A DNA stretch of 64,000 bases from Rhododendron vialii (taxonomy: Eukaryota; Streptophyta; Magnoliopsida; Ericales; Ericaceae). Below, one piece after another: positions 14,123-53,546 of this stretch (positions are counted from its first letter, which is position 1; each line of letters begins with the position of its first letter). A program made the translations under genes and the position numbers. Under the pieces are notes generated by a model. The model had not been told where the DNA came from, made no database searches, and saw nothing but the letters and a program-made list of their open reading frames with translations. Location of the stretch: the NCBI RefSeq assembly GCF_030253575.1, contig NC_080557.1, positions 39,911,001 through 39,975,000 of the forward strand, read 5' to 3'.

Positions 14123-14131
14123 TATAAGGTT
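14123..14131 (+). repeat. Left 9-bp target-site duplication of the MULE
   Basis: TATAAGGTT abuts the left terminus of the large Mutator-like element. It is repeated without a mismatch at 37311-37319, next to the right terminus. Nine base pairs is the length made by Mutator-superfamily transposases. Confidence 0.93.
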
Positions 14132-14210
14132 GGGAACGACTTCGGTGTCCCCGGTCATTTTGGGGACACCGTAATTTTTGGTATAACAAAATCATTACAA
14201 GCATAACCAA
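14132..14210 (+). repeat. Left terminal inverted repeat of the MULE
   Basis: This end is the inverse of 37232-37310. It holds a perfect hairpin: CGGTGTCCCC at 14143-14152, a 9-nt loop, and GGGGACACCG at 14162-14171. The same hairpin occurs at the other end. Beyond it both ends continue with ATAACMAAATCATTA-like and CATAACC motifs, probably transposase-binding subterminal sequence. Confidence 0.9.
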
Positions 14211-14339
14211 ACCAATTATATGTATAACCAAGCCATAACAAGGCATAACCAAGGTATAACCAAAACTCCGATCCAACGGTTGAGATTGTGCCACGCATGC
14301 CAGTTTGACCAAAAAAAACCGGTCAAACTGGTCACCCTA

Positions 14340-14700
14340 ACAGGTCATCGTATTTGGCATAACAAAACCACTAAATAGCATAACAAGTAAACCCAAAAAG
14401 GCATAACTCGTGAATTTAATGGCATAACATGAGTATAATATTTCCTAAACAGGTATAACATTAACCCAAAATAGGCATAACAAAACCATTAAATGACATA
14501 ATTGTTGAGTTATAACCATGTGGGCATAACATAAACCATTGAAAAGCATAACAAAAAACCAATAACAAGTATAACAAAAACCATAAAAGGCATAACAAAA
14601 AGCAAAAAGTAAAAGAAGCATAATATGACCACATAAAAGCATAACAATAACCTCTAAAAGGTATAACAACAACCTCTAAAACCATAACAATACCCACCTG
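14340..14700. repeat. Subterminal GGCATAACA minisatellite-like array
   Basis: More than a dozen degenerate units of the form GGCATAACAAAAACC, spaced about 25-30 bp, fill this stretch. Long open frames on the minus strand here (CYAF/CYGFCY-like) are by-products of the array. The right subterminal region has only a few related motifs (37195-37260). Both ends share the palindrome TTAACCATGGTTAA (about 14736 and 37120), so the left TIR may have grown by array expansion. Confidence 0.8.
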
Positions 14701-14804
14701 TCATTTTTTCATTTATTTTTTTATTTGAAAATGTTTAACCATGGTTAAGTGAGAAAAAAATTTAAAATGTAAATGTGTCTTGCGATTATGTTCAACAGTA
14801 AAAT

Positions 14805-16110
14805 GTAATGGACCTCAATAAATCATTTATTTTAATAATCAAGGCCGTTAATTTGGTTGTTCTTGTTGATTTAGTTATTTATGAAAATTTTGGGCTCCAT
14901 CCGGATTATGAAACTCTTTGATTGGTACAAAAATTCAACATAAGAATGATAACTTATGTCCGATAAAGTTTGTAACGATAAGCAATTTACTTATTTTTTT
15001 TGCAAGAATGATGTAATCTCTCTTACGGAAATGATAGACGGTTCCGATTTTTAAAAAATTGATCAAGCGGTCATCGAGTTGTGAATTATAGGACTTTAAT
15101 ACCTACGTAAGCATCGAATGTGTTCCAATCATGTGGTTGCCGACATTCAATCATCACTAAAGTTGGCGAAAAATATAGAATCGATAAGATGTGCAATCTT
15201 AACGGTTTAGATCGGTCATCAGAAAAAATTATTGAATAGCTTCCTTTAAAATCTATATATTGAATTTCATTGTTTCCAAACTAAGGTCTTATGCTTTTGT
15301 GTAATGTACAATACTCATACTATCGCAACACAATCACAATGATCGATACCGTTCAGTTTGTTTTGATTGGTGTTTTAATTGTTCTCGTAAATTTTTGGGA
15401 CTACCGGATTTGGAAAGCCTTTTATTGGAACGTAGATTCATTATTATAATGACATTTTACATCTGATCAAGTATGTATTGATAAGAAATTTAATTCATTT
15501 TTGGCAGAAGTATTCTAATCTTTGTTACGTAAAGTATAGACGGTCCCGATTCGGGAAAAAATAGCCAAGGCGGCCCAAGAGTGGTGCAGTATGGGACTTT
15601 AACGCTTCTGGAAGCACCAAATGTATTCCGATTATGTGGTTGTCGACATCCGATTATCACCGATTTTGGTGACAATGATTAAATAAACAAGATGTTAAAT
15701 CCCATCGGTTTAGATCGAGCATTTGAAAATAAATTAGTTGCCAACCACCTTTAAAATCTATACATTACACTTTTTTTATTATGAACCAAGATCTTGTGCT
15801 GTAGTCTAATGTACAGTAGTCACACGACCGCATCACTATCACGACGATCGATACCGTTAATTTTATTGTACTTGTTGTTTTAATCATTCTCATAAAATTT
15901 TGGGTCTAACGGATTTTGAAAACTTTTTCATCAGAATGCAGATTCAATATTGTATGTTCGATTTTCCGATTATGTATGCAATTGGTCCCACCCATACAAG
16001 GAGAATCCCCCAAAATTTTGAAATCAGACCTTTTTACGGCAAAATTTTTGGGATTCAGATCCTCTACGAGGATTTCTCTGTTAGGATCATGTGATGCTTT
16101 TAATATGGAG
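14805..16110 (+). repeat. Diverged tandem repeat, about 505-bp period, 2.6 copies
   Basis: Matching landmarks recur at about 505-bp spacing: CCGTT in related contexts near 14845, 15349 and 15854; GATCGATACC at 15341 and 15846; GTTTAGATCG at about 15202 and 15709. The copies are diverged, with no open frame worth calling. It lies inside the MULE between the subterminal array and the first captured gene piece. Confidence 0.75.
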
Positions 16111-16317
16111 CTACCAACACATTAATGAGAAGATCGAAGGGCCCAAAACAACTCATCTTTGTTTTTGACAGAACACGCTGCTGTAGGGAATAATTGTCTA
16201 CCGGAAAAAAAACCCTACGTCCTAATCTTCTTCTTCTCCGTCGCTCTCAGTCCGTCGCTCTCAGTAAGTGTAACTTGCATCTTGACTTACGTTTCATCGC
16301 TGGTTTGATTTATCCAG

Positions 16318-16526
16318 AATTTGGAGGTGTTTCCTGAAGACAAGGCTATTAGTGAAGATGGGTCAGTTGAGGCAGGAGGATCTACTCGGAGTTTCAAGCT
16401 CTTTGGGAAGAATGTGCTAGTCAAAGATTCTAACAAGCCAAGTGAGGCATTTTGTGATCTGGCTTACATTAGTGAGAAAGGAGTGAACTTATCAGGTGGA
16501 CAGAGAGCTCGTCTTGCTCTGGCCAG
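16318..16526 (+). pseudogene. Captured exon: REVEILLE-type MYB piece joined to ABCC transporter piece
   Basis: One open exon (acceptor at 16316-16317, donor GT at 16527) encodes two unrelated gene pieces in one frame. The first half contains GGSTRSFKLFGKNVLV, which resembles the C-terminal region of REVEILLE/CCA1-like MYB factors. The second half contains YISEKGVNLSGGQRARLALA, the ABC signature (LSGGQ) of an ABCC half-domain. An upstream pyrimidine-rich exon ends near 16265 with a GTAAGT donor. No in-frame ATG is present, so this is probably an untranslated leader exon of the downstream HMG-Ulp1 transcript. Splicing to 18474 would keep frame. The abrupt junction marks transposon-mediated capture. 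Confidence 0.6.
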
Positions 16527-18474
16527 GTAACCATTGCTACTGTAAATAGGGTTCGTAGGGTTTTTTTCATGTTCCTGCACTTTTTTTTGGTTTCTTTGTT
16601 CATTAGAATAGTTAGGGTTCTCCTGCAATTCATCCGAATAGTTTTGTACGGCCGTGTGTTTCGATCTTCGGGGCTACGTGGTAAGAATATTTGTGGTATC
16701 AAACGCGTGATGATACAAATGCACATGTGCTCGAGCACACACTACCTCCACGGGCAGGGGATTGTTTTTTTTGAGTATTGGTTTCTAATAATTGGTTATT
16801 CCATAGAGTTTGACTTCCTTCTATGGCCGAACTGTGATGAATTTATTTGTTACGCAAGAATTGGACTTTTGTGTTCCACTGTGTTTGGAATTGAAATTTT
16901 GAATTAGGTTGAGCTATTTGTTACAACATTATGCAGTTCTCTACATGGGAACTAGTAACTCCAAATCCCTCGGTGTTACTACCATTCCCGGCTTTTAGAA
17001 TTTCAGCAATAGGCAAATGGTTTGGATGAAAGTTCCCCATCTCTTTCTACAATTTCGGCTATGCAGTTGATTTGCCTATTCCATGTAGGTTTGGTATCAT
17101 TTTGAGTAGTTATTTGATAGGAATAGTTATGATGGTGCCTGGCAAGAGGTTTTGAAGGGTGAATGTATCAGGAACATCACTTGCTTTGATGGCCTGTAAT
17201 TTGTAAGTGGTTTCCAATGCAACGGCAGGAGCCACGATTCTAAATGCGCAACATTTGAGTTTCAGTGCACAGTTGTGTAATTCACTTTTACATTAGCCAT
17301 ACATAACTTACGGTCTTGACCAGTATTATAAATATTACGATTTTGATCATTGCAGTTGGTTAAAAAAAACGATACAAAGATGATCCAAAAGGAGGGATTA
17401 GTCCCTACAAGGGGCGGTAGAGGAGTTCCTTTGTAGAATGCCAGGGACTGCCCAGAAGTGGGAAGCAACTGCAGAATTGTAAACCAAACATTAGAAAATT
17501 AAATACCCTTTTTCTTCTTCTCTCTCATTTTAGAACTCATTCTTATCTCTCCATTCTCTATCATCTGCAATTCATATATTGTTAGGTCACATACTGTTAC
17601 CAACACTCCTCATAGCTTGACCAAAGAAGTATATTCCACAATGGTTAGAAAATGCATGCTGCTGCGAAAAATTCTCAATACTGCGACACTAATAATCAGA
17701 GAATGTATAGCAAAACTTTTGGGAATCTTTCACCGTAACTAGAGAACGCAATTGCTATTGAAAAAATCATGGATTTGCACAATTTGATTGTTTTTTTGAG
17801 TATTGGTTTCAACTTGAGGTTGGATGCAATCCGGTCGTGAGTTGGGCATTCAATTGCTATTGAAAAAAACATGCCCAGATTTTAATGGAGTGGGTTGTCT
17901 CTTTGTGGCAAACTTGGAAAGACTGAAATAAGAAAAGTTTTAACAACTTGAATTCTAATGTTTACTCTAGCTACACGAACATCATTGCCTATGCCTCTGA
18001 AATGAATGAGGCATTCAAGTCCCCTCTTCACAATGTGGTAGTATATTTAGTTACCACTTTGAGCTTCATGGATTTGCACACTTTGAGTAATCCTAGAAAC
18101 TTACATTTGGAGATGAAATGCTTTGTTACTATTATGTTTTGTCATATGTAGGCAGATGGTTATTTCTTTTTGCTAACTTTTGAGAATGTCACTAAAAGAT
18201 TTGATCTCCATCCAGTTTATTAGGAAGGGGTAGCCCTAAGGCACGAGCAAGAAGGTCCATTCGGGACTATTCAATTCTTTGTAGCTATAAGGGTGTTTAA
18301 TAACTAGTGACTCGTGCCATTAGCATGTCCTTGCACTAAATAGGGATTCTATTTCCAATTGAAGTTGTACGATTCCATTTCCAATTGATGATTAAACATT
18401 TTAAGCTGATTACATTTTCATCTCGATATTATGTTTGATTGTAACACGGCCATGATGAATTATGTATTTTCAGC
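16527..18474. other. Probable leader intron of the HMG-Ulp1 gene
   Basis: A GTAACC donor at 16527 and a TTTTCAG acceptor at 18471-18473 bracket nearly 2 kb with no coding signal I can defend. It is AT-rich, with short Ser/Leu-rich frames only. Confidence 0.4.
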
Positions 18475-21400
18475 ATGACAGACGAGATCATTCAGAAGTA
18501 TGCTTTGAAAGGAAGGGTGCCATCGGCCTTCATTCTATATAAGTATTCCTTGTTAATGAAAATTTAATTCATTTAACACTGATTTGGTGTTTAATTATGT
18601 ATTTTCCTATGACAATGTTTGACTACTACTTTATGTTTGTGCAAGTAGCAATGAAACCATAGCCAATCTAAAAGATGCTGGTACCTTAATAACAAATCAG
18701 GTAAAATTATAATTTTAACTTAACATTTTGTCATCTAATTGCATCTATTTGATCTAATGTTGATGATGACAAATGATCATTGGTGCATGATTTGGTATGT
18801 ATTGCAGACGAAGAGGGACATTGGTGAGCAATGGAAAAACCTGTCGAACGAACACAGGCAAAAGTACAAAGATTTGGCTGAGTTGGCCAAAGAGGAACTC
18901 ACCAAGCATAAAGCTGTACTTCTGCCAAAACCCAAAAAAGTGAGTACAAATTGTTGGAACTTGTCTAGGTGAACATGATTTGACCTGATTTTGGAATGCC
19001 AACTTATTTGATGATGTTTGTTAAATTTGCAGAAAAAGATACAGAACCGTATTTCCTTAAAGTCCATCGTTCGAATAGTACAAAAGTTAAGCCCAGATCA
19101 ACGTCGTGCTATTCAGCTTATTGGGTTGGGTGGAATATTAGAATTGAGGTGTACGGCTCTTAACCATCCGCTATGTAATTGGTTGGTGCATAAATTTGAT
19201 CCTGTTTCTCGTTCACTTACTGTTCATGGGCAGACATTCCTTCTCACTGATTCCCATGTTCATGAGTGCTTGGGCATTAATGCACAAGGCAACCTTATTG
19301 AGTTGGAGGGAAATACGTCGGTAGAATTTTCAGAAGTTTATAAAAACCTTGGAATGACGAATGGGGTAGTCCAACTGAAAGAGTTGAGAGAGTACTTGGA
19401 GAAAACGGAGGAAGTAGATGATGTTTTCAAGAGGAAATTTGCCTTGTACATCTTGGGATGTTTTTTATGCCCAACCACAAAGTCGGGTGTTACTCGATCC
19501 CTTATTAATGTTGTTAGTGATGTTGCGGCAATGGCCAATCAGAATTGGGCGAACCTGACCCTAGACTTCTTATGCAAGGGTATACTAGACCAACGCAATA
19601 AGGATCATGCACAACCAAGCGGGTGCCTATTCCTCCTGGTGGTAGGTATTGAGTGATTCTGCATTAACGCATTTCATATTCCTTATTTCACTTTGGTTAT
19701 TTATTTGTTATGCATTATTACTTTAATTGTCTCATAATGCAGGTTTTCTACTTGGATCGTGTCTCTCCAAGGCCTATAGTTATGCCTTATGTTCGAAAAT
19801 TCCCTTCTTTGCTTGCTTGGGGTGATTCTGAAATTAAGAGTGTCTTGCATCGGTTTGACCAAATTGGAGGTTATGACAGGGAGGGGGTGGTGGTTCATTT
19901 TACACTAGAGGAAAAAACAAGTGGCAATGAAGGCGGTGTGTCCCAAATTTCAACTGGAGATGTAACTGTGATGACAAATACTCTTGCAACTATAGCAGGT
20001 CTTTTGTTGCGTCAAAATATATTAATGGCGAAGCACTTTGGCTCTGAAACGCCTTCTAAGCTACAACCACAAATGGGTCAAGAAATGGACCTAAACAATG
20101 TCCACCTTCAGGGAGAATTCTCTGCCCTCCTCGCGGGAGTACATGCATGTCAAACTTCAACACCGAACTTGTTTCAAACCCCTGATCTTGCACTCAACCA
20201 ATCATCCAAGGCTGTCTCAACAAATCCATGGCTGGCCAGCCATGTTAGCGCTGAAACACCTTCTAAGCTGGAACCACAAACAGCTCAAGAAATGGACCCG
20301 AACCATGTCCACCTTGAAGGAGTATCTTCTCCCCTCCTCACGCAAGTGCATACATGTCAAAGTTCAAGTCCGAACTTGTTTGAAACCCTTGATCATGGCT
20401 CTGAAATGCCGTCTCAGCTGCAACCACAAACGACTCAAGAAATGGACTTGAACCAAGTCCACCATTCAGGAGAATCCTCTCCCCAATTAATGGGAGTACA
20501 CAAAAGTGAAACCTCAATACCCAACCAGTTTAAAACTCCCGATCCCAACCAGTTTGATCAATATAACATGGGGATTGACACTCGAAAGAGGAGGATACAA
20601 TTTGAGGTGGATGAGATCCTAGTTTTACCTTCAGCAGTATCAGACTTTAAGTCATGCGGTGGTTTGAGTAGAGGTACCGACACTCGAAAGAGGAAGATAC
20701 AACAGGACATGGATGTGGCTGTATGTTCACCTTCACCGGTAAAGGGCTTTAAGTCGCGTGGTGGTTTGAGTAGAGGTAGGAAAAAAAAGTTGCTGAATGC
20801 CAACTATGTCCCGTCTTTCTGTGTTAATGATAATGTGGAAGTGTATGATGAACCACCGCGGTTGCGACAGCCTAATGAGTTGAAGAAAAGCCAATTCCAA
20901 CGTTCCCCCTTTACGAAGGATGGTCTTAAAAAGAGGAACCCTCCTAACAAACAAGCACAAACTCAGTCAACGATTATTGCGGACCAACATCAAATTGTGG
21001 ACAACCTGGATGTCAACGTTCCCACTGTATGAATCTTAATATCATTTACATTTATTGTCCCTTGTATACAATGTATTTCCAATTCATGGTTCTTATATTG
21101 TTTTTCCTGTCCAATTAAACAGTTTTGTGGACGCTATGGAAAATTCAAGTCTTTGCAGTTTGCTGGTGTGCAACAGTTGAATCTACAAACCAAGGTTACT
21201 AGTGATTCCCAATTTCCCTTCTACATTCTAGTATTTAGTCTAACTTGTTTTTCTTTTCTATTTGTTTCTTGTATAGCCGTATATTCGAGAAACACCTGAT
21301 TATGCAAGGAAGTCAACCTCGGTACCCTTAAATGACCTTGAAAAGTTGTTCGCGGCATTCATCTTTGATCCTTGCGATCCATTTACTGAGTACATTTTTC

Positions 21401-22948
21401 TAATTATGTGTTTTCCTTTGTTTTCCCTTGTAAACTATGAGGATTGTTTTTCATTACCACAATCATTCTTGTAGGGATTCTTACGTGCATTTGAAATTGT
21501 TTTCCACCGAAAGATTTTTTGCAACCCGGTCTGAATTGTGCAGCTTGAAACCCGGAGTATGGATACTAGACACGGTTTGTGTAAATATGATTTTGCCACT
21601 TGGTTTAAGTTGAAGTATTCAATTTGTTATTACTTTTTGCATTTTAGTCCAATGTGGTTACCTATCATGTATGGTTGTAGATTCTAAATTTGGTAGCCGT
21701 GCAAATGACAAATGCGGAAAGGTTGCTCTATCCAGACAAGCGCCACTTCATGTGGTATTTGCCGGTTACTGTATCAGTGAGTATAATCAATTTTCCCTTT
21801 GTTTCTTATACTACTGGCATTGTTTTTTATTCCCGTAAATTTGCCTCTTTATTCCCATAAATTTGCAGAGGCAGATATTAGACAATCCCAACCTCAATGA
21901 TTGTGATTTGAAGAAGTTATGCGGTAGCTACTTTGGAGATACAAATTTTACTGCTGATCTTAGCTCATGCTCTATGGTAAAGTTATAAAATGTTGAACTA
22001 AGTTAGTACTTTTGCAAATCAATTATAAAATAAGATTTCAATTGGTCTTGAATCATGATTGTTTACCTTTGATCGTAGATATACATACCAACAAATGATC
22101 GTGGGAACCACTGGTTTTGCATCAAAATAGACATGGGCATCCATATGGTTTATATTTTTGATTCAAAGCCCGCTACTCGATCCAATTTGTTTCGTAAGAA
22201 ACTGACACAACGAGTGGTATGGCACACCTCGTTTAGACCATGTTTTACGATATGCCCGGTTTGTATTCTAACTACTTGTTTTTACGATTAGCTGGAGGGA
22301 TTACATCGCGCGTTGCTCTTCCAATATGGAGAGCTCTATCAGGTTGATGTCACGAAGTTTAACATTGCTAATGTTGAAAAGCAACCCTTGCAGCATGAGG
22401 AGGACGGGTAATTTATTAAACATAATCTTTTTTAAGGCTTCACTTTTATGCCTATGAGACTAATAATTATGAAAATGTATCCCCGATGTATCCGTATCCT
22501 TTTTTTTAGTTTTTGCCATATTGCCGTATCCGTATCGTGTCGTATCCCGTATCTGTATCTGTGCTTTATAGGTTACTTGTGTTAATTGTGTTACTAGTGT
22601 TTGAAGTGGTTTACTTTATTCCTTTCTGCACATTTTTAGGTATGATTGTGGGCTATTTGTTATAAAATTCATGCAAGGGTTCAATTTCCCATCCGGTGTA
22701 CACAAGGTTAGTGCTCGTAAAGTAACATCGTTATGTTGTATTTAACTGGTTGTGATAGTGTTGGATTTCTAAGCTAGCTTTGGGTTTTGTAGATGGACAA
22801 TATTGAAAGGCCAAGGTTGTTATTGGAATTGTGTGGTGACAAGAATAATCGGGATGCCTTGGAGGTTTTAAAAAAATTTGAGGCATGGAAGGCAGAAAGA
22901 GGTAAAACGGGCTTTGTGTACGCAGGTGGTCACGTGATTCGTATATAA
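18475..22948 (+). CDS. HMG-box-like plus Ulp1/C48 cysteine protease protein (MULE cargo)
   Basis: Thirteen exons join with GT-AG sites and consistent phase: 18475-18542, 18649-18700, 18808-18939, 19033-19641, 19743-21026, 21123-21194, 21277-21389, 21475-21574, 21681-21776, 21869-21976, 22079-22216, 22292-22407 + 22640-22706 and 22793-22948 (the penultimate item lists two exons). The product is about 1036 aa with no stop. Residues 12-75 resemble an HMG box (VPSAFILY, then IGEQWKNLSNEHRQKYKDLA). Residues 85-400 resemble the plant-mobile-like domain seen in TE-linked Ulp1 proteins. A low-complexity repeat linker follows. The C-terminus has the C48 triad: His889 in GNHW, Asp906 in IFDSKP, Cys966 in GYDCGLFVIKF. 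The likely role is removing SUMO or a related modifier in the nucleus. The Gln normally 6-7 residues before Cys sits one or two further away. The start is the first in-frame ATG; an alternative acceptor for exon 2 is 18646. Confidence 0.82.
20040..20776 (+). repeat. Coding repeats in the Ulp1 protein linker
   Basis: Three degenerate units of about 50 codons (20040-20186, 20248-20397, 20398-20544) each run from an ETPSKLQPQ-like start through QEMDLN, HLQGE and PNLFQTPD-like motifs. Two further units of about 34 codons (20571-20673, 20674-20776) share DTRKRRIQ and FKSCGGLSRG. All stay in frame. Confidence 0.85.
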
Positions 22949-24960
22949 CTAACAATCTGTAGGCATATTTTGTAAAGGTTAAGTTTTTTGGGGGCCTGAT
23001 TTTACATGGGTTATCAAGTATCGTTCCGTATGGTAGTTTTAACATTTTAGGGTAATCCACTTTGTAATATATGGCGCATGATTGGAACCTAATGCTATGT
23101 TGTTTCGTATTTATTTAGGTGCAATATTTTGGTTATGTAATTTCCTTGTTCCATATGGGTGATCAAACTTAATGGGTATTCATTAATGCCTGCGTGATGG
23201 GAAAGAGTTACCTCACTACTTTCGAATACTTCTCGGGGATTCGCACATATGGTTATCCAAATTCTTGATTATACTATCATTACCCGTTCTTTCCATGTGA
23301 ATCAATTGGCAAAGATAGTGTAATAGGAATTTGGACAACTTGGGGCAGGATCGGCAGGTTTTTGGAGGAGTCTGTTTTTGTTTTGCAAATCCAGGGGCTG
23401 CGTTTGTTTAGGTAGAGTAAGTTTATTGGTTCATGTGAGTTGTATACAGAGGTTTTGGCAGTTCATAGGAAGGGAAGTTCAGGGGGTGGTCATGGAAGTG
23501 TGTTAATGGAGTATGAGTTTTTCCCGGCTAGGAAAAGTGGGTGCAAAGGAGCTACTAGCACTTGTTCCAAGGCTGTGGAATTTGGGTTATTACCACCAGA
23601 AGAAGATTCAGTTGTAGTTAGAGTAATGGATGGTGGTGATTATGATGATCAAGAGGGTTCTTGCAGAATGGTGTTGCTAATGGAGTGATTACTTCTTTTT
23701 TACTGTGGAATTCTGCACCATTGTAACTGCTGCTTCTACTGTTGTTGTTACGGTACGAGTGCGGATGTAAGCCCAAGAGTCGAGTTTACCAAAGATTAGG
23801 TGCCAATTTGACAGAAGGAAGATTTTCCCAAGGACAGTCCACTGATTTGTAAGCCATTTTGATCATCTTGCTTCTACTTGTGCTATATATCAGCAAGGCA
23901 GGCTTAAAAAATTAGAGGGTTGCCACCAACTTCAATCAGAAATGACATCAATTCCAAAAGTATATGGCACTCCATCGGGCCGATCGATTACGATCTCTCG
24001 AAAATCAAATCGATTGCTTCTTCTTTTTTTATATAACTCAGGCGCCCGGACCAATTTTGTCAAGACCGCAATTGATGAAAATGTGTGTTTACTAGCTCTT
24101 CCTGTGTTTCAATCCTTGTGCTTCCGGTAGACAAAATCCTACAATACTTCTCCTTGCGTTACAAATTTTAACATTGATAGTATCTATTTTGAAGATGTCA
24201 GGTTCTCCTCAATTTGAACCAATTGGACGTCTTCCACCTCACATTCTCTCCTCTCATTTTGTTACGAAAAAGTTCGCATCACCTTAGCACGAACACAGCT
24301 GTATCAAAAGCAAACAACGAACACAAATCAACAAAGTGTAGTCCTTTACTGATTATAAATGGACAGATTCAAACAGCAATATGCCACACTTCAACTCATC
24401 CGTTGGACGTTATCATAAATGGATAGATTCAAACAGCTACTTTAATAGAACTCAATACAACCATCCGCTAAGCATTACAAAGTGCAGTCCTTTACTGATT
24501 ATTGGATTCATAGGTAAAAATATAGTAATTCAAGCCAAGGAACAAATGCTCTCTCCCCGTAATTGAGACTACAACAACTAAGTCTGCAGCGATTGAATCT
24601 GACAAATGCTCTCTCTGCCCGTTGTCGCTGGGGCGCCTACACCCCTCACCCGGGTGCCGTGCACGGGTCTTCTCCTTGCACACAATGACTCAAACTTCCC
24701 ATTTCCTGCATGCATCTTCTGGTGATCGCGAAAACACAAATAGACATTCACTAATCATAGATGCCTCCCAAGCTGGACATGAGTCCTTTGGAAACGTCAC
24801 ATTTGTCCTGGAATAATACAGTTGACATACACATACTAAAGCACAAAATTTAAAAATCAAACTAGTGAAACCATTGACAAGAGCATCCATGGGCAGACTA
24901 ACAGCGTGTTAATACAAAAGAGAACCAAAATCAGCCAGTGATCACCAATACCTCACTTAA
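22949..24960. other. MULE interior without a recognised gene
   Basis: An open frame at about 23440-23688 (with EYEFFPARKSGC and a Gly/Asp-rich end) has coding-like composition and may be another captured exon, but I do not recognise it. Near 24335-24505 a short motif (CCTTTACTGATTAT, AATGGACAGATTCAAACAGC) recurs, suggesting a small local duplication. Nothing else is supported. Confidence 0.4.
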
Positions 24961-25433
24961 TTACTGCTTCTTCTGACCGTCAATGATTTCCTTTTTGCGT
25001 AGAAGATAATACTTTTGCAGCATTGGAGACATCCCACTTGAATCCAACATCATGATTCTACGCTCGTCTCTCAATCGCTCTATTCGAATCTCTTCAGCTT
25101 GATTACGGTAGAGTTTCTCAAACATTTCGACTTGCATCTTGAATACTCTTTTTCTTTCTTCGAGCATCTCATTCATTAACTCCCTGATTTGAGAACTTGC
25201 ACAACTATGGCTCTTTACTTTTTTCAACCGTCCCTTTTCAGCCTCACTGCCTATCGGTCTCTCCAACGCGCATAGGTATCGAGTGAGACATCATCTTCTG
25301 CTAGGTTGATTGACTCTTGTGTCCAAGGAGAAGATGGTGTAGCATTTCTACTTCTTTTCGGGTTTTTTCTTCCGGCCTTCAGCAACTGGAAGAGGCTGAT
25401 TACGGGAAGAGCAAGGTCTGCTTGTGAATCCAT
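24961..25433 (-). pseudogene. NAM-associated C-terminal-domain-like fragment, frameshifted
   Basis: Two overlapping frames read as one damaged protein. The upstream frame (25433-25251) has a SSPWTQESINLAEDD-type motif. The downstream frame (from about 25266) gives RPIGSEAEKGRLKK, a charged helix rich in Glu/Arg, and a tail containing SGMSPMLQKYY and KKEII. This order is typical of the NAM-associated C-terminal domain family in plants. The two halves are out of frame by one base near 25255-25270, so the copy is broken. The 5' end begins at an AG acceptor without recognisable upstream exons. It lies inside the MULE, so it is probably a captured fragment. Confidence 0.55.
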
Positions 25434-26715
25434 CCCTGTTATAGAATGAAAAGAAACAAATGGAAAGAGAATGATGGTGGTGAAAGAAGGCCAATTCCAA
25501 TTCTCACAAGAAAAAGAGAAGGCATATGAAAATTAAACCAACCAATGCTAAACTGAATCACTGAAATCCTCACTATTCACATTTCTATCTGCGAATAAAG
25601 CTTTCAAGTTTCAACCCCATATTACTTGTATAGATCTATGGAAAGGAAGCCAACATCAAAAGATTCAAAACCACATAAGATAGAACCTAAAGTATTGCAC
25701 TCTTCTTTTACGACGAAGATACAGCTGCAAACCAGAGCCATACCAAACACAAGACCAGAAACCATCACATTTGGCACTAGGTAAATTCAAATAGATTAAG
25801 CAATTAGAAGGTCTACGCCTATGATAACTAACCATTCCATTTACAACAAACCAAAAACAGTTACTTGCTTCTCACTGTTTTTCTATCCACTGTAAAAAAG
25901 ACATTTCATTCAAGAACAGTTACTCAGAAATTTATATTATTCCTTTTGGAAAAAAGTAAGCGATCTGATTGCCATTACCAAGCACGTTTTATTCATCTTT
26001 CATAGTGAACTTTCTAAGCCAATACACGAAAAAGGTTAAATCCAAATAGTACCAACTTTTCAACTAATTTATGTATATTCCCCAACTTATATTAGATAAT
26101 ATCAGCAGCCAAACATGAAGCCAAGCTTCCAATGATACTGAGCAATCTAAAACACTACTATTCTGGGATCAGTATAATAAAGAGCTCTAGTTTTAGATCA
26201 TAGACAGCTTTAAACTACTAAAAAAACTCAACCATGCACATTTTTATGTATACAATGTATGACTACGTCAACAGCCACTAGTAACTAGTCTTGTGACACG
26301 GGCATCCCTATGAACTACCCAACTCCCATCCACCATAACAAGCAATGCTCATCTACTCAAGTTTCAACAAATTTTACTGCCTTTAGTTTATAAAACAATT
26401 TTCTATCTACTAGGTGAACAATTTTCACATAGTCCCATCCCATCCTCAAGAAATTGGATATCCATGGTTTTCGAAAATCGATATCCATCACATTTGCGAA
26501 AAGGAATTACTAAGATCAGGAAAGATATTTTTACCAGAGATTTTTGATGGTCGCTGCTATAGCTAGTACTCCTTGAGGACCAAAGATTTTTCACCACCAG
26601 CTGCTATGATAATTCTTAAACAGTGTTCAGAACCGTTAGTTGCACATGGATTCACATGCATTTAACGGTTCCGGACACAGTTGTGTCCAGAGTTGTGAAG
26701 ACCTTAATGTCTTAC
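25434..26715. other. MULE interior, no gene seen
   Basis: AT-rich sequence between the NAM-like fragment and the ferritin exons. The last ferritin exon (beginning Val-Ala-x-Arg-Asn in plant ferritins) should lie here if the gene were whole. I looked for it and did not find it. Confidence 0.5.
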
Positions 26716-27850
26716 GGCATGCAAGTTCAGAAGTTTTTCGTTTGTCAACTTCTCCAAAGACAGCGCAAGCTCCATTGCTATATCAACAAAATAGAGGAAT
26801 TAGTTCTAATCAAATAAACTGAACAGATTCTGAATAATGCTTAGAATAAGAGTTCATGTGTGAGGAGAATGAATGCACGCGAAGTCGCAAACAAACAAAC
26901 AAAATAATCTTGCCCTTTGCGAGAACCAACTTCTTGGCTTCTTGTTCATTCAGCATTAGCAACACCAATATATACAGAGCAATAACCAGAAAGAACTAAT
27001 GTGGGAAGCACATCAGCAGTTAGAACACTACAAACTAACATAGGTATAACAAGGAAGTCCATATGGAAGAATTTGCACATATGCCCAAATGAAAGCTTCC
27101 TACTTTATCAGAACACAGATAAATACTGCCGCTTGAAGTTCAACCACATTCATGTCTCCAAAGGGACATAGAGAGGAACAAGGCTAGGCACGAGACAGCA
27201 ACTTAAAGAATGGACCAAACTTTGTGACCTATACATATTATAATCTAACGCTAAATTGATCTCTTTTTAACAGAATAATGACCTCCTGGAAGTTTGTCTC
27301 TCTATATGTTTCAATTTCCATAAGATACTCAGTTACAAAAACCAATCTAAGACCAAGAAGATGAACATCTGGATATAACTATATGCGTAAAAGCTGTAGA
27401 AAAGCATGTTTAATTCGCACCATATTGCAAAAAGAGCATTAAAACCTACCATACAATGCATCTCCTTTCTCAACGTGATCAAACTCGGACAATGGCATCT
27501 GAATGGATTGCAGTTTCACTTTCCCACCACGTTTGTTCTGAAATTGATAGGACGGTAAATATCAGGATTCACCTGTGAAACAAAACCTACTCCAATTTTT
27601 CCAAACGAATTGAGAAACACCAAAACAATAATCACAAATCACACCTGATACTCCATCAACTTCTCCGCGTGCTCTCTTTCCTCTTCGCTTGATTCCTGGA
27701 AAAACCTACAACAAAAAATCACAAACTACAAGTCAGATTCCCATTCTACCAGAACATAGAGGAAAACCCCACGTGGAAATCAAGAACTGATGGAATGATT
27801 ACCTTGCAAGACCCTTAAGAGCTACGTTGTCTCGATTAAAGTAGGCAAAT
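26716..27850 (-). pseudogene. Ferritin gene fragment, four internal exons
   Basis: Four consecutive exons of a plant ferritin are present in order with intact splice sites and phases: 27850-27803 (FAYFNRDNVALKGLA), 27705-27645 (FFQESSEEEREHAEKLMEYQ), 27537-27450 ([24 protein letters not shown]) and 26777-26716 (AMELALSLEKLTNEKLLNLH). They include the ferroxidase-centre Glu and His of the EEREHAE helix. The exons for the transit peptide, the extension peptide and first helix, and for the last helix (GHGVWHFD region), are absent on both sides, so no functional ferritin can be made. Intron retention shows the copy came from genomic DNA. It lies inside the MULE and is read as a captured host fragment. 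Confidence 0.8.
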
Positions 27851-28835
27851 CTGTTAACATCTGTTCGAATCGATAGATCATTCATAAAAAGGCATCCATA
27901 AAAAACGGAGCAACGTTATCGTTTCGGATTGAAGAATGACACTTTAACCATTGAAAAGTAAAACTGGTGCAGAGACAGATTTTGGGTCAACTTTAATAGC
28001 AAATCTATTATTGCTCAGGCATAACTGAAGCGCACGGGTTGCATCGTTGGAAAGCTCTACGTGTCTAGTTTCTAGCAAAGCAAGCGGAATGTGATTTCGA
28101 GTCTCAAGCTAGGAGATATGACTGTTTTTCCAACTTGTGTCGGTGCTGACTGCTCAATTCCGAATTTGAGCGATGCTAGGTTAAAAATTTCTATAGAGCT
28201 CAATACTTTGAACTAGATTCTGGAGGTGGGTTTAGGTTCCAGAGGAGAGTAGGAGAATTATCAATAATTGGTTTGTGGAGGTGGGTTTAGGTTCCATTAA
28301 GGTCTTTTTGTGAAGATACGGAAGCGGTAGTATTCAACTGCCTAAAGTCTCTTAAACAGCTCCACATTAAGCAGTGTCAATTTAAGCAGATGAAGTAAAA
28401 AGAATACTATGCAATGTTGCAGTCCAGTTCCACCCATGGCACATGCAGTACCTGTAGCAAAATCCTTGTGTGTTTCCTATTAAAATAGAAAACACATTTT
28501 ATGCCGATTTCAACATATTTTCTTTTGAACATCAACGTAGATACTCTCATTGTCCTCCTGGCACAGAAGAAAAATCCTAAAAATTAGCATGTGCATGTGC
28601 CTATTGATTCAAATTTACTGTAGAAATTAACCTGGATATTATTTAGTGAATAATGAGCTCCACAAAACCGAATCATTCTTATTTTGGATCAAACACTAAG
28701 CCATTGTAGTTGTAACAAGACTAGCACAGAAAACTTGGAAAGTAGAAACTACCAGATGTGACAAGGTACAAGTCACCACCATGTCATCTTATCCTTCTTA
28801 AATGTGGGGTGGGTGGCCCGCAAAGGGACACATAC
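27851..28835. other. MULE interior between ferritin and PRP39 fragments
   Basis: No coding signal is recognised. The upstream ferritin exons are not here, nor are the PRP39 exons that should follow the one ending at 28836. The phrase GGAGGTGGGTTTAGGTTCC occurs twice (about 28223-28241 and 28277-28295), a small local duplication. Confidence 0.5.
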
Positions 28836-31339: not shown

Positions 31340-32332
31340 CTTGGGAAGGTGCCAACAAATTATATCCTACAGAATTTCATAAGGAAGTTACTAACTTGCT
31401 TAGTGAATAATAAGTAGCAAAAAGAACAAGTTCCGTTAATAAGACAATATTGTGTGCTGAGTATGATAATCATAAAGCATCAGTGCATAACACACGAATG
31501 TACAAAACCATAGTCAAAGAATACTATCTTCAATCTTAAAGAATCTCCCTAAGTATGTTTAAAGAGTGGAGTGACTATCTTACAGGGGACTGTTTTATTA
31601 CCATTGTTAAGAAGTGGAGAAGCCCTGGAACAACCAAAAACACAATCAAACATTATAGCTCAAAGGGCTACCCATATTGTGCACATTGAGGGTACCAAGT
31701 CAAACCCAGCAGAATTTAGCAATCTATGCAAATTGAGGGTACCAAGTCATGGTATATTTAACTACAGACATGAAAATTGTGGAATAAAACATGACACAAC
31801 AATATCACAAACCTCTGGAAGACGATAAAAATTGAAATAAGAAATTTGAGCCGAATGACATATAAACTACTTATCTCGAGCTAATGAAGGAAGATTGAAT
31901 TGTACCTTTGTATTTGGATTCCGTAAAGAATGTGAGAGAGAACATCTATTCTCTTCCATGTTTGAGACATGTCAATAATCGACCTCGAGCATATGGGGCA
32001 ACAATATCTGTATGACATATCAGCAAAACTATTTTTCATAGGTAAACAAACTACATCAACCTATGAAAAAACCTAAACCATTTCAACAGATTAAGACACT
32101 AACTAACATAGATTAACACACAAACACAAATCAACATCAACTAGGCCAAGGAAAATGAGTAATAAACATCTGCAATACAAATATTCCAACTGAACTTAGT
32201 AATTGAACTTACTAACTACTACAACAGTGAATAAGTTAAAGAGATCCATTTCTCATGATAATGCTCATACATTGAGGCCTTGAGTTTTAAAGTTCCACAG
32301 TACATCAACTTTAGGCAAATATAAAAATATGG
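31340..32332. other. MULE interior, no gene seen
   Basis: AT-rich sequence between the first PRP39 exon and the 3' end of the transposase gene. No frame resembles a known domain. It probably contains the transposase 3' UTR and polyadenylation region. Confidence 0.5.
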
Positions 32333-34672
32333 CTAAATAGGAAGGTCGTCAATTGGATGCTTTGATGACAACTTTGGACATGTTCGCTTATCGTGACCTC
32401 GGCACTTGCAGTGGCTACATTTCCTGGGATTCCGAGAATGTTGGGCACTGGACTTCTTCCCAGGGTTGCCTTTGGTCTTGACCACAGGTGGATCGCCCAC
32501 ACCAAACAAAATTTGGCCATCACTTGATTTGCCAATCTCTGTGTTGCACTCCTTATTCTTTCCCATCTCCCAACGCTTCCTCATCCAGGATGTCATTTCG
32601 TGTTCCATTTGCCTAGCATCTTCAAATGAGTCCTGTGCATGTGACGCATAGAATGACATCAATTTGTAACCCGAACTCAATATCCCATACCTAGCCATGT
32701 GGGATATACTGCGAGAAATTTGGCATACATTTGGTTGTTGGGTCAGAGGTCGACCACGCCTTGTCCATCTTTGCATGACTAAACTAGGGGGAATGGTCGG
32801 TAGGTGTTCATATTTCATGACCACAATCATATGGCAACAAGGTAGACCAAAAGACTCAAACATCAAACAACTACAATTGATTCTGCTATCAATTGGATAA
32901 TACTCGACCGTCCAATTGGATTCTGGATGCGAGTACATCTCAATGAAGTACAACCGACGCTCCATCTCATCAACACGACGCGCCACAATCAATGCAGATG
33001 CACGCTGTATTTCATCCTGAAAGAATCTGAATATGTATTGTGTGTACACCTCGGTTCCATTCTTCTCCAAGCTTTTCAATTGCGTGATCAAGACAGGGGT
33101 ACTATGCTCCGTTGCCGTCTCAGCCTTTGCATCGGCAACTCGCATCCTAGCTAGACCACGGTGGTACTGTTGGACAAATTCAAAAAGCCGTAGCCTTACT
33201 GTTAAGAACCGATTTAAATAACGGTTCATACCTTCACAGCGCTGAGTACTCCTCATCCCTGCAAAGAAATGGCCGAGAAGATATGCCTCGGCCCATCTTT
33301 CGCGGTCGCTATACATCTCTACCACCCAAGTGTTTGTCTCTAGGCCGTAGTGTGATACCATATCAGCCCAAAGAGTTTCAAATTCTTCAACATCACATTC
33401 CATTTGCATCAAAATGGTAAAGTCAGATACGAATTCCGGTATATGAACATTTTTAGCGGCATTTCGCTCCAGATGCCACGAACATAGGCGATGCCTTACA
33501 TCAGGAAAAATGTTTCTAATTGCATTGCGCATCGCCAAATCACCATCTGTGACCACCGAGATGGGCCGTTTACCATCCATAGCCTCTAAAAACGTTGAAA
33601 GAACCCAATTGTACGTATCCTCCGTCTCTTTTGACAACAATGCACAACCAAATATGGTCGTTGTAAAGTTATTACTCACACCTGCCAGTATGACAAATGG
33701 CTTCTTGTACGCATTGGTTCGATAGGTCGTGTCGAAAACTAACACATCTCCGAATGCAGCATAATCCATCTTAGACCTCCCATCTGTCCAGAAAAGTGTC
33801 TCCAACCGGTCATCCTCGTCAACAGTGTACTTGAAGAAAAATAACGGATCATTACTTACTTGAGCAGACAAGTATCCCAATGCACCCTCAGCATCCCCAT
33901 TTCTTATTTCTTCTTTACGAATGCTATGCAATTTGTTACGCAAATCTTTTACAGTGAACCCCACATTATGGAAACCCCCAGACTGACATGTCATATAGTC
34001 CATAATTTGCGCTGGCTTCATGCCTACATTCCGCATGGCCATTACCTGAGCTATGTCTGCATCATCCACACGTCTATGCGATCGCAGAAAGGGAACACAA
34101 TGTGGTGCTGCTAAGGGATGATTGTGGGTACTCACAAACTCTGTGACAACGTAATTTTTCATGGTTTTGCTCATACGACAAACCCGGAATTTAGCACCAC
34201 AACCAGTTCTTGTTTCAGCTTTATGACGTCGTTTTCGATCAGTGCGTTCTAAATGCTTCTTATTTCTTTTACCTTCCCCAGAACAAACCCAAGTCCTCCA
34301 CCTTACGTACATTTCATTGCCTTTTTGTGGTCTACTTTTATATTTGCGTACGCTAAAACCAATTGCCTTGGCATATGCATTGTAGAATTGACCAGCTTCA
34401 TCTTCAGAAACAAATTTCATTTCCATAATCTCCATATCAGTGAGCAAGCGAAAACTATCATCTACACTGGAAACTAACCCATCCCCTTCCTTTTCCCCAT
34501 CCACATCATTATTTTCATCTTCAGAAACAAATGTATTACTCTGCGAATCTTCCGAACTAGAACAAGAGTCAGAATTGGATTCCCAATCGTATGAATCTAC
34601 CTTCACACCCTTGCTGTTGGTACTACTAATGGGAGTTTCCATTGTACCCCTAAATAATAAACCACATGCCAC
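32333..34672 (-). CDS. Mutator-like transposase, FAR1/Jittery type (MURA-like)
   Basis: A single uninterrupted 779-codon frame. An acidic N-terminus precedes a FAR1-type DNA-binding zinc region (about 83-200; YNAYAKAIGFSVRKYKSR, TGCGAKFRV, THNHPL). The MULE catalytic domain follows, with Asp314 in VFDTTYRTN, Asp376 in VTDGDLAMRNAI, the C-x2-H motif CSWH (397-400) and Glu480 in RCEGMNRYL. A SWIM finger has C600, C602, C612 and H614. A C-terminal CCHC knuckle has C752, C755, H760 and C765. All canonical DDE residues are present, so the enzyme looks active. Met11 (METPISS) could be the real start. The gene reads inward from the right TIR. It could be mistaken for a domesticated FAR1-related gene, but its place between MULE TIRs with a target duplication argues for the element's own transposase. 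Confidence 0.9.
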   Translation of the reverse strand: MACGLLFRGTMETPISSTNSKGVKVDSYDWESNSDSCSSSEDSQSNTFVSEDENNDVDGEKEGDGLVSSVDDSFRLLTDMEIMEMKFVSEDEAGQFYNAYAKAIGFSVRKYKSRPQKGNEMYVRWRTWVCSGEGKRNKKHLERTDRKRRHKAETRTGCGAKFRVCRMSKTMKNYVVTEFVSTHNHPLAAPHCVPFLRSHRRVDDADIAQVMAMRNVGMKPAQIMDYMTCQSGGFHNVGFTVKDLRNKLHSIRKEEIRNGDAEGALGYLSAQVSNDPLFFFKYTVDEDDRLETLFWTDGRSKMDYAAFGDVLVFDTTYRTNAYKKPFVILAGVSNNFTTTIFGCALLSKETEDTYNWVLSTFLEAMDGKRPISVVTDGDLAMRNAIRNIFPDVRHRLCSWHLERNAAKNVHIPEFVSDFTILMQMECDVEEFETLWADMVSHYGLETNTWVVEMYSDRERWAEAYLLGHFFAGMRSTQRCEGMNRYLNRFLTVRLRLFEFVQQYHRGLARMRVADAKAETATEHSTPVLITQLKSLEKNGTEVYTQYIFRFFQDEIQRASALIVARRVDEMERRLYFIEMYSHPESNWTVEYYPIDSRINCSCLMFESFGLPCCHMIVVMKYEHLPTIPPSLVMQRWTRRGRPLTQQPNVCQISRSISHMARYGILSSGYKLMSFYASHAQDSFEDARQMEHEMTSWMRKRWEMGKNKECNTEIGKSSDGQILFGVGDPPVVKTKGNPGKKSSAQHSRNPRKCSHCKCRGHDKRTCPKLSSKHPIDDLPI

Positions 34673-36879
34673 AACTTTTAATCCACAAGACTAGTTACAT
34701 ACAGAGGTGAAATAGGTTGCATACACATGACCTATAATTAAAGTGCATTACTTACACAATTGTCAGCTTCATAGTGATAAACAAAATAAATCTATTTCGT
34801 GACACCTCATATGCCTTCTAAATGGGTTTTCAAGAGACTTATGTCACCAAATCTACACAAACATTATAGACTTCGATGTCAAACTTTTGCATTACTATTT
34901 CTCAAAAAAAAAAAGAAAAGAAACGGAGAGTTGTTTGATTATTATTTGGACAAAACTGAGACTAAATTATCAATGGACCATAAACACCATTACTATATCT
35001 CACACTAACATCAAGATTCTGAAATTTGGAATACCTACAAATAATAATTGACCACTACAGAATCAACAATACATTTTGACAAACAACTTATATGCAAACA
35101 CCTTAACCAACAACATATAAGGGCATTTGTGTGATCAAATAGTGTAACAAACAAAGAAAAATACTCTTCTCCCACTTCCTCACCGCCAACCATATGATTT
35201 TTGTAGAAACACAATACACCAGATTGTTTATGCTGTCTTTCTTTACAGTCCAAAGAAATTGGACTGTTATTTATGGCACAACAAAGTCCAAAGTGAACCA
35301 ACATTCAACTAAACCATCATCTTAAATATAATGTATGGTAAAACAAGTTTACCACATCGGTATCTATTGGTCTTGTGTACGCTGATTGCACCCCCTTGGT
35401 GTTTTTTTCACACATTGTTTCTTAACAGATAAAACAAGAACAAAATATAAGCGCACTATGTTGTTCAATACTCAAGTACAAATGTAGGTGTCTACATGGC
35501 CTACTCGTAAAAGTTTCTAAGCACTAACTCACTAGACATGACTTTCAAAAAAAAATTCAAGGACAAACAGGGGCGGCAATGTATACGAATTAAGAGTTTG
35601 CTCTTCTTGGGTCTCAAGTTCGAAATCTCTTAGATAACATCTTATTCTTGGTGTTTTTTTCACACATTGTTTCTTAACAGATAAACAAGAACAAAATGTA
35701 AGCACACTATGTTGTTCAATATGCAAGTACAAATGTCGGTGTCTACGTGACCTACTCATAAAAGTTTCTAAGCACTAACTCGCTAGACATGACTTCCAAA
35801 AAAAAAAGAGTCATGGACAAACAGGGGCGGCAATGTATACGAATTAAGAGTTTGCTCTTCTTGGGTCTCAAGTTCGAAATCTCTTAGATAACATCTTATT
35901 TTTGTAAGGCAAGTTCGTATAGGACTTTAACCATCGTTTCTATTAATCACCTCTGTTAGGTATTTACAAGTACATACTAGTGGGATCCTTCAATTGGAAT
36001 GTTGTGTCCAGTGTTCTATCTTTCTTGATTGAGAAACCAAGTTCAACCAATTGATTGATAAAGATGATTGACCACATTATTGAACCTCCCATGCGACAAA
36101 ATCCTTGTGTGATTCTTCATGTGATGCAATGAAACCCACCCACCGCATTAGTTAACAATATGAGATGTGCATGTTGTAGGCCTCGATGTGTTTATCATCT
36201 AAATTCTCTATTGTGAGGGCACCAATTATTCATAACTTTAAACAAAAATTCATAATCAAGCTCAATTATATAAAAACAAAAAGAGTTTATCATATGCAAA
36301 AAAATTTGTAGTATACATGCTTCAAGGAGTTTCTAAACATAAATAAGCACAAAAATCTAAATATTCCTCGATCGCTAAATACTTCAATGTGCACTGTCAT
36401 AGTTGACCCTATCGAGATTTTATATCTTGATCAAAGTGTGATTGTCTCACTAAGCTTCCATCAACAACATAACCATATCGATCCACACACACACATAGCA
36501 CCAAGGTATCATTCGTCCATTGTCACGCTTAAGTAGCAGCAACAACAAGTCACAGCATAGGAGTGCTATAATCGTTAATTTGTGTTGCCCTAAAGTTAAC
36601 ACAAATTAGAAGATTTCAACAAATATGGGCCGTAAATAAAATTTGTTCAGAAATAAAATAGGGAATCAGATTATACCCAAACACAAATACTGGGTTTGAC
36701 GTGGGCGTGGGGGAGCTTCAGGATCTCGGCCTTGTTCTCGTTGAAGGTGGGTTTCGGATTTGGATTGAAACCGGGTTGTCCGATGGCGGCCCGACGCCGT
36801 TGTTGTTGGTTGTGGGGGCGGCGGCGACGTCCACGGGGTGGATGTAAGGTGGGGAGGAGGGGACGGAGGAAGAGAAGAG

Positions 36880-36921
<42 letters not shown>

Positions 36922-37231
36922 TTGCTCAGATCAATCCATTCCTCGACACCAGACGAGGAGTCATGATGGGTGGGAGATGAACATGGTTAAAGGGCGTGGG
37001 TTTTCTTTCTGGGTCGGAGTCTGGGAGATGAACGAAGTGCAGAGGGATTTTCCCTGGTTAAAGGGAATGATTTAGGGAAAAGATGTAGAGGATGATAGAT
37101 GTAGGGGATAAAACTCTCTTAACCATGGTTAAACCCTGGTTAAAGGGGGCTAATTTCTTGTTCTTTTTTTTTTCACCGGCTCTTTAAGTATCCGGGAAAT
37201 TTGTTATACCTTGGTTATGCACTATATGGTT
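34673..37231. other. MULE right arm: transposase upstream region
   Basis: AT-rich sequence upstream of the transposase, with the 252-bp duplication at 35396-35900. At about 36690-36990 is an island of high GC with a GA run (36885-36918). Read on the minus strand, part of it is open (FNPNPKPTFNENKAE), so it may be a captured exon or the transposase promoter and leader. Starch-like simple ACAC and TTAACCATGGTTAA motifs follow toward the TIR. Confidence 0.45.
35396..35900. repeat. 252-bp tandem duplication
   Basis: Two adjacent copies begin CTTGGTGTTTTTTTCACAC at 35395 and 35647 and stay near-identical to TCTTAGATAACATCTTATT. Each copy contains a SINE-like B-box sequence (CTCAAGTTCGAAATCTC), so the unit may be a duplicated SINE-bearing segment. 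Confidence 0.9.
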
Positions 37232-37310
37232 TTGGTTATGTTCATAATGATTTTGTCATGCCAATTATTACGGTGTCCCCAAAATGACCGGGGACACCGT
37301 AGCATCATCC
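37232..37310 (-). repeat. Right terminal inverted repeat of the MULE
   Basis: Inverse of the left TIR. Hairpin arms are CGGTGTCCCC (37271-37280) and GGGGACACCG (37290-37299). The terminal bases read GGATGATGCTAC on the minus strand. Confidence 0.9.
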
Positions 37311-37319
37311 TATAAGGTT
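37311..37319 (+). repeat. Right 9-bp target-site duplication of the MULE
   Basis: TATAAGGTT, identical to 14123-14131, directly abuts the right terminus. Confidence 0.93.
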
Positions 37320-39090: not shown

Positions 39091-39433
39091 GAGTTATGCT
39101 ATATGTACCGACCATGGGGGAGGAAAATCGTACCGACGGCCGCCGGCGGGCCGTCTCCGGCCACCGGACAACCGATCCGAGCTGTCCAAAAATTCTAAAA
39201 AAAAAAACTGATGGGGCTTACGCGGGAATCATATACATATATACACGAAAAAAGGGTGCTCGAATCAAGCACCCTACACACCTCGGATGCCGTTGATTCC
39301 CGTAGAGGCCCCATCGGTTTTTTTTTTAGAATTTTTGGACGGCTCGGATCGGCCGTCCGGTGGCTGGAGACGGCCCGCCGGCGGCCGTCGATACGATTTC
39401 CCTCCCCCATGGTCGGTACTCATAGCTTTTCTG
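39091..39433. mobile_element. 343-bp Mutator-type MITE with long GC-rich TIRs
   Basis: The arms at about 39091-39210 and 39314-39433 are inverted repeats, both including TACCGACCATGGGGGAGG and GGCCGCCGGCGGGCCGTC. Flanking 9-bp direct repeats are perfect: ATGTGAAAA at 39082-39090 and 39434-39442. TIR length and a 9-bp duplication place it in the Mutator superfamily. The terminal bases differ from those of the large MULE, so it is a different family. The interior has a short hairpin (GGGTGCTCGAATCAAGCACCC). No coding capacity. Confidence 0.88.
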
Positions 39434-53162: not shown

Positions 53163-53546
53163 TAAGAGCATCTCCGATCCATCTACTATCCATCTCCATT
53201 TCCTCCAAAATAGAGTATAGATGTAACATATTGAGGGGAGATTTTGTAATTTATTCCATTTTTTCTTCACTTTTTGTACTTTTTGGGAGAATCTTTGAGG
53301 AACCCATCGTCCTTTTTAGAGTTTGGAGGAATTTTGTACTCAAAATTTACTTTTGATCCTCCATTTTTAGAGAATCAAATTTACTTTTGGAGGACCAAAC
53401 TCTAAAAAGGACGGTGGGTCCCTCAAATATTCTCCCAAAAATTACAAAAAGTGAAGAAAAAAGAGAATAAATTATAAAATCTCCCCTCAATGTGTCACAT
53501 CCATCCTCTATTTTGGAGAAATAGAGGTGGATTGGAGATGCTCTTA
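53163..53546. mobile_element. Foldback MITE, 384 bp
   Basis: The unit is a near-continuous inverted repeat with arms of roughly 180 bp: TAAGAGCATCTCC at the left and GGAGATGCTCTTA at the right, with paired internal segments such as CTCTAAAAAGGAC. The sequence GAGCATCTCC links it to the MITE around the hAT element at 53780. Confidence 0.8.

Follow-up and report, generated by a model that had tools for sequence, protein, structure and literature searches.

A 23-kb Jittery-type Mutator-like element of Rhododendron vialii with open transposase and HMG box-Ulp1 genes and cargo copied from seven loci

A stretch of 64,000 nucleotides from the Rhododendron vialii assembly (contig NC_080557.1, positions 39,911,001 to 39,975,000; here called the window) holds a 23-kb element that we consider, with a probability of about 0.87, to be a complete, potentially autonomous Mutator-like element (MULE) of the Jittery type, the steps of movement, capture and accessory action proposed below included. 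Its paired, family-specific ends stand within a 9-bp target-site duplication (TSD) and enclose a transposase frame that is open and has the D, D and E positions, a convergent open gene for a protein with an HMG box, a plant mobile domain (PMD)-like region and an Ulp1 region, and about 7.7 kb of copied DNA whose donors, seven loci on five chromosomes, are still in place. We propose that the transposase would bind the ends and move both the element and its small relatives, which resemble miniature inverted-repeat transposable elements (MITEs), by cut and paste, and that excision or breakage would be followed by gap repair that switches templates at microhomologies of 4 to 6 bp, other DNA being copied in over successive rounds. 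With less weight, and by analogy with the VANC and KIU proteins of VANDAL elements, the HMG-Ulp1 protein may act as an accessory factor, most likely by countering silencing at an array of GYATAAC motifs near the left end.

RESULTS

Ends, duplication and other copies. The element occupies 36% of the window (Table 1); the preliminary description, made from the letters of the window, had put its share at almost 40%, a little high, but had seen rightly that it is one unit. The 9-mer TATAAGGTT stands exactly at both outer edges, as had been reported, and when both strands were scanned it occurred nowhere else in the window. The earlier statement that the inverted ends align without gaps from the first base holds for a repeat of 102 bp at 83% identity (14140-14241 versus 37201-37302) but not for the outermost 8 to 11 bp, which match poorly (GGGAACGACTT on the left, GGATGATGCTA on the right). 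These end-specific outermost bases are mostly kept across other copies, the exceptions being the left end of copy F, which starts differently, and copy E, which is slightly changed. Left-right similarity decays beyond about 100 bp inward, and each end contains a perfect 10-bp hairpin, CGGTGTCCCC...GGGGACACCG (14143-14171 and 37271-37299). Three features that mark a MULE are present: a MULE DDE transposase domain, a target duplication of about 9 bp and long terminal inverted repeats (TIRs).

The source assembly (532.6 Mb, 13 contigs) was searched with a 391-bp query from the right end, and the best 40 of 640 candidates were scored; genome match counts here and below are lower bounds. The full right end was found in these 40 at no fewer than eight sites, namely the window copy (W) and copies A, C, D, E, F, G and H, and in eight of eight a correctly oriented left end lay 6.9 to 23.2 kb away. 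Two more full or near-full left ends, copy B on C2 and another at C7:14026901, lacked a right-end partner among the matches listed. Other copies share the internal modules of W, likewise enclosed by this pair of ends, at about 90 to 98% identity. A pair of ends would also arise if ordinary host genes happened to be flanked by two small MITEs or MULE relics of independent origin, and the same terminal repeats do occur in many elements of about 300 bp across the genome. With every full right end found paired in proper orientation, however, one common 9-bp duplication around W and shared modules between the ends, two unrelated MITEs are ruled out; to this alternative, which the preliminary description had itself raised, we assign next to no probability.

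Flanking sequence was inspected in seven copies (W, A, C, D, E, F and G), and perfect 9-bp duplications, differing from copy to copy, were present in four (W, C, D and E); copy A is inserted in a TA repeat, where a duplication is uninformative. Copy A is also the closest copy, with a 6.1-kb core 98.3% identical to that of W without gaps and 96% identical with gaps counted. Plant substitution rates are 7e-9 to 1.3e-8 per site and year, from which the divergence of W and A dates to roughly 0.6 to 1.2 million years ago. The view of a single, recent and complete giant MULE put forward in the preliminary description is borne out by these results, with at least seven further copies carrying both ends in proper order.

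Among the small elements, 14 loci were considered. A perfect 9-bp duplication lies directly at both ends in two (L039 and L043), a perfect 9-mer is offset by two bases in L045 and a perfect 8-mer by one base in L040, and a duplication with one mismatch is found in three (L041, L048 and L049). At C7:1187143-1188093, the same terminal repeat is clustered in alternating inverted copies, as if small elements had been nested into each other or tandemly multiplied.

Transposase. The transposase frame, which had been described as intact, is open over 785 codons and matches the Pfam domains FAR1, MULE and SWIM, all above cut-off (MULE, 92.3 bits against a cut-off of 27.6). The domains occur in the order FAR1, MULE, SWIM, which we take to be the mark of Jittery-type transposases. 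With residues numbered stop to stop, W and eight relatives all have D320, D382, C403 and H406, and W has E486 too, so that the D, D, E positions are all there. Compared with the uninterrupted frame of W, there is one stop in copy A, there are four in copy B, and both stops and frameshifts occur in C and D, while copies F and G show no match to the transposase module of the window. In a genome scan in which the best 57 of 1120 candidates were scored, every other locus of at least 72% identity had at least one stop or matched only in part; relatives at 44 to 55% identity include uninterrupted frames. The ratio of nonsynonymous to synonymous change (pN/pS) between W and each copy was 0.28 (A), 0.38 (C), 0.57 (D) and 0.40 (B).

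A second core gene. The other long gene was modelled by hand from splice signals, with 13 introns, all GT-AG, and zero internal stops; its start codon is a choice, and an upstream exon is therefore possible. The predicted protein matches the Pfam HMG box (36.7 bits, cut-off 25.4) and Peptidase_C48/Ulp1 (49.3 bits, cut-off 20.7), and its PMD-like region falls below threshold (19.0 bits, cut-off 34.9). DUF1985 gave no match at E values up to 1, and a comparison of the Ulp1 region with solved structures returned two weak matches alone (E of 0.13 and 0.21).

For a test of pairing, 60 transposase matches were merged into 54 loci and the N-terminal 352 residues of the gene 2 product served as the query within 40 kb, all 122 gene 2 rows being covered; the counts apply to loci among the matches listed. 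A gene 2 relative was present at 24 of the 29 transposase loci of at least 42% identity and at none of the 25 below 42%; this threshold was chosen once the list had been viewed and falls in its gap between 44% and 35%. All 24 pairs are tail to tail (convergent), with 0.4 to 30 kb between the matched parts (12.7 kb in W). The five unpaired loci are C1:30.40, C1:32.56 (gene 2 pieces 85 kb off), C3:21.60, C13:33.53 and C4:37.13. The many-exon gene was thus rejected as captured cargo; on this pattern of matches, gene 2 belongs to the old core of the element and moves together with this type of transposase, in tail-to-tail arrangement. What had been reported as a 13-exon passenger is therefore a many-exon gene, modelled with 14 coding exons, yet no passenger.

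Host ULP domains have been described as transduplicated sequence in other MULEs (PMC2528002, PMC13317346), and the HMG-Ulp1 gene might likewise be host DNA that hitchhikes neutrally and has no function in the transposon. We consider this quite improbable, in view of the tail-to-tail arrangement, retained at those 24 of 29 loci down to about 45% transposase identity, and of an excess of synonymous change: pN/pS between W and each copy was 0.60 (A), 0.53 (B), 0.36 (C), 0.23 (D, part) and 0.38 (F, part). More serious is the reading in which the whole element is an intact-looking dead relic, its open frames chance survivors and its past movement driven from elsewhere. That no other close copy among the 57 scored retains an uninterrupted transposase frame speaks for such a relic; against it stand stop-free frames of 1,036 amino acids and 785 codons, GT-AG borders at 13 of 13 introns, the perfect duplication and the 98.3% identity to the nearest copy, and we regard it as distinctly possible but short of probable.

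GYATAAC array. The motifs of the left subterminal array are spaced 20 to 23 bp apart in 11 of 16 intervals, and each of eight copies examined has 16 to 18 of them in its first 800 bp. In 500 shuffles of the same stretch the motif, which was picked after viewing it, occurred 0.22 times on average and at most twice, compared with 17 observed. Upstream of gene 2 in a relative of 55% identity, no similar array was present in the 3.0 kb examined, which possibly stop short of the end of that element.

Captured DNA. Cargo amounts to 7,658 bp, or 33% of the element, and is 93 to 100% identical to seven donor loci, all still in place at unlinked positions; the several host gene pieces of the preliminary description can in this way be traced to their sources. 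Pfam matches support three of the donors (PRP39, ABC transporter and NAM-associated). The PRP39 splicing-factor copy lacks internal donor stretches, including one encoding part of the N-terminal HAT repeats, and is thus a fragment. In the donor region of the 77-bp ABC transporter piece, which we take to be an 'ABCC' gene, an ABC_membrane domain lies 2.4 kb further along; the two ABC transporter pieces are 1.6 kb apart in the C8 donor, and we infer that they belong to one gene and count them as such. The NAM-associated domain is found in a minus-strand frame (24964-25290) of the segment from C13:26.14. The C10 donor locus is presumably REVEILLE/LHY-like. The donor at C5:5.59 is one of a small set of repeats, which leaves the exact source uncertain, and the frames scanned from C9:37.25 and C5:37.54 had no Pfam match above cut-off, for which reason we call these loci rather than genes. 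No donor is assigned to the stretches 24335-24373, 24600-24615, 26541-26705 and 27850-28659, the last including a dispersed repeat with many genome copies (27959-28222).

Table 1. Positions of the element, its parts and its cargo in the window, and of other copies in the assembly
Feature	Position	Strand	Details
Mutator-like element	14132-37310		23,179 bp
Target-site duplication TATAAGGTT	left 14123-14131; right 37311-37319		exact 9-mer
Left terminal inverted repeat	14132-14241	+	also found in other copies
Right terminal inverted repeat	37201-37310	-	full 391-bp right end at no fewer than 8 genome sites
Subterminal GYATAAC array	14181-14667	+	17 motifs on one strand, first 540 bp of element
Captured fragment	16262-16457	+	donor C10:36.08 Mb, 97%
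Captured ABC transporter piece, 77 bp	16454-16530	+	donor C8:31.506 Mb, 100%
Captured segment	16787-17749	+	donor C5:5.59 Mb, 93-96%
Core gene 2 (HMG box/Ulp1)	18475-22948	+	14 coding exons, 1,036 aa, frame intact
Two captured pieces	24062-24334, 24374-24599	+	donor C5:37.54 Mb, 96%
Captured segment	24616-25852	+	donor C13:26.14 Mb, 98.3%
Captured ABC transporter segment, inverted	25849-26540	-	692 bp, donor C8:31.508 Mb, 96.7%
Captured segment	26706-27849	+	donor C9:37.25 Mb, 98.5%
Captured PRP39 splicing-factor gene, three pieces	28660-31518	gene reads -	donor C13:29.16 Mb, 98.0-99.2%
Transposase frame	32333-34690	-	785 codons stop to stop; 769 aa from first Met
Copy A	C1:5622260-5644175		21,916 bp
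Copy C			14,655 bp
Copy D			16,327 bp
Copy E			7,228 bp
Copy F			13,903 bp
Copy G			7,665 bp
Copy H	C8		about 6.9 kb

Joins and order of capture. Joins were called clean where both partners were known and at most one extra base was present, and overlaps were read by eye from alignments. The seven clean joins share 4 (GTGA), 6 (AGGTAA), 1, 4 (AACC), 0 with one inserted base, 4 (CACT) and 4 (CAAA) bases, which amounts to microhomology of 4 to 6 bp at five of seven; among 200,000 random joins drawn on the same sequences, 2.0% shared four or more bases (p = 6e-8). Fillers of greater length are present at three further joins, of which one lies within a 14-bp tandem duplication, and if these joins are counted as failures the proportion becomes 5 of 10 (p = 7e-7). 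Capture by template switching is favoured by this excess of microhomology, and sequential capture of this kind is the best-supported mechanism; the joins of W also agree with the template-switching or microhomology-mediated repair that has been put forward for animal TIR elements (PMC8277862). A resident element could also have received cargo by ordinary nested insertion or by segmental recombination, given that some stretches hold dispersed repeats (27959-28222) and that joins with fillers exist. That route is unlikely in our estimation, since the pieces are arbitrary parts of loci whose donors remain in place, one ABC transporter region has contributed pieces at two sites in both orientations, and microhomology marks five of the seven clean joins.

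Copy A contains the segment at 16.2-17.8 kb. It also contains portions of the pieces from C8 and C9, in which it has 4 and 2 derived changes in common with W, but nothing in it matches the donors PRP39, C13:26.14 and C5:37.54; on this comparison the captures appear to have been successive. Copies F and G contain sequence from this PRP39 donor too, but from other parts of the gene, and since they also lack a match to the transposase module, PRP39 may have been captured more than once. Over 426 columns, one change separates the donor from W, F and G, and W has six private changes; a single PRP39 capture common to the three copies may be the other reading. Position 31515 was considered as a fixed capture boundary common to the copies and rejected, because this limit arises from the breakpoint of W itself when W is the query.

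The 77-bp ABC transporter piece meets the backbone inside AGGTAA and so retains a 5' splice site, and the piece that precedes it supplies an intron start (GTAAGT). The fused frame of the two captured pieces, 16309-16527, is open and flanked by splice-site-like sequences, and we regard it as a putative chimeric exon.

Neighbouring features. Outside the element, the window contains a hAT transposase in two adjacent minus-strand frames (54913-57119), with a BED zinc finger and the hAT RNase-H-like and dimerisation domains, and an Exostosin GT47 family gene matched by two separate plus-strand frames (48220-50913). Short inverted repeats with arms of 109 to 127 nt, 91 to 93% complementary, lie at 53200-53521 and 39098-39426 and are possibly other MITEs or foldbacks.

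DISCUSSION

The identification of the element as a complete and potentially autonomous MULE has to be set against a number of observations that do not favour it. Copy F has no recognisable duplication, and the flanks of copy G match, by eye, at 7 of 9 bases; the duplication scan was empty at 6 of the 14 small-element loci (L038, L042, L044, L046, L047 and L050), and one more (L051) was not resolved as a paired element. An empty site, a search for which the preliminary description had suggested, was sought in the same genome and none was found. Two of the clean joins depart from the microhomology pattern (1 bp, and 0 bp with one inserted base), in addition to the three joins with fillers, and the small peptide frame of the C13:26.14 donor has no Pfam match, unlike its copy in the window. 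Between W and its closest copy, A, the pN/pS of gene 2 (0.60) is calculated from 44 changes and is weak alone, and the central cargo of W is known from one assembly.

In Arabidopsis, VANDAL elements encode VANC proteins, which bind short tandem-repeat motifs and remove methylation (PMC5735166, PMC10398659), and ULP-bearing relatives are stated in a review to act likewise (PMC13317346). From this precedent and from the GYATAAC array, we suggest that the HMG-Ulp1 protein might act on the array; gene 2 and the array might then represent a second transposon anti-silencing system. A more ambitious proposal, which we offer as speculation and hold to be rather doubtful, is that of a two-gene system in which the HMG box/Ulp1 protein would recognise the phased GYATAAC array next to the left end and keep the element unsilenced, and in which the space between the two convergent genes would be a tolerated cargo bay filled by successive template-switching captures, so that one self-sufficient transposon could build and spread multi-gene mosaics, sometimes with splice-competent new exons.

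Gene capture by MULEs has mostly been studied on non-autonomous elements, because those bearing a transposase were excluded by definition (PMC4858842). The element described here displays, in one unit, the likely jumping machinery and the gene shuffling that it causes, and as its frames are open and its cargo recent, with the donors present, it allows a direct reading of the order in which pieces were captured, of how they were joined and of what became of them. At 23.2 kb it exceeds the longest published MULE family that we found, Mutavine-1 of grapevine, a MuDR-like TIR family of 17.7 kb (PMC2528002, Table 4); the two are alike as very long TIR MULEs, but Mutavine-1 is MuDR-like and shorter, and the description gives no such cargo for it. 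According to a review of giant transposons, no Pack-MULE of one 2004 survey was longer than 7 kb (PMC6431247).

The Pack-MULEs of rice likewise carry genomic gene fragments between MULE ends, here from seven donor loci, but they are defined as non-autonomous and without transposase (PMC4858842), whereas in W the 785-codon transposase frame is open and gene 2 is intact as well. In grapevine, the Jittery-like MULEs Jitvine-1 (11.9 kb) and Jitvine-2 (14.4 kb) resemble W in the type of transposase and in their length, and in some grapevine Jittery-like families a ULP sequence lies downstream of the transposase (PMC2528002). Neither TIRs nor TSDs are listed for these two in Table 4 of that paper, and its description of them does not mention an HMG box, whereas W has TIRs of 102 bp, a 9-bp TSD, a length of 23.2 kb, multi-donor cargo and an HMG box in gene 2. 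The KI-MULE and KIU-VANDAL elements share with W a ULP1-type gene inverted relative to the transposase and short tandem non-coding motifs (PMC13317346, PMC5735166, PMC10398659), but they are non-TIR MULEs, and motif binding and loss of methylation are experimental results for VANC proteins, whereas the array of W is known from its sequence. In the open-access literature searched, we found no description of an HMG box combined with Ulp1 in a MULE and no equal case of two intact frames, TIRs, extreme length and multi-donor cargo. The machinery is of a known kind; what is new is that these four features occur together, the combination of intact frames with multi-donor cargo counting as new because Pack-MULEs are defined by the absence of a transposase.

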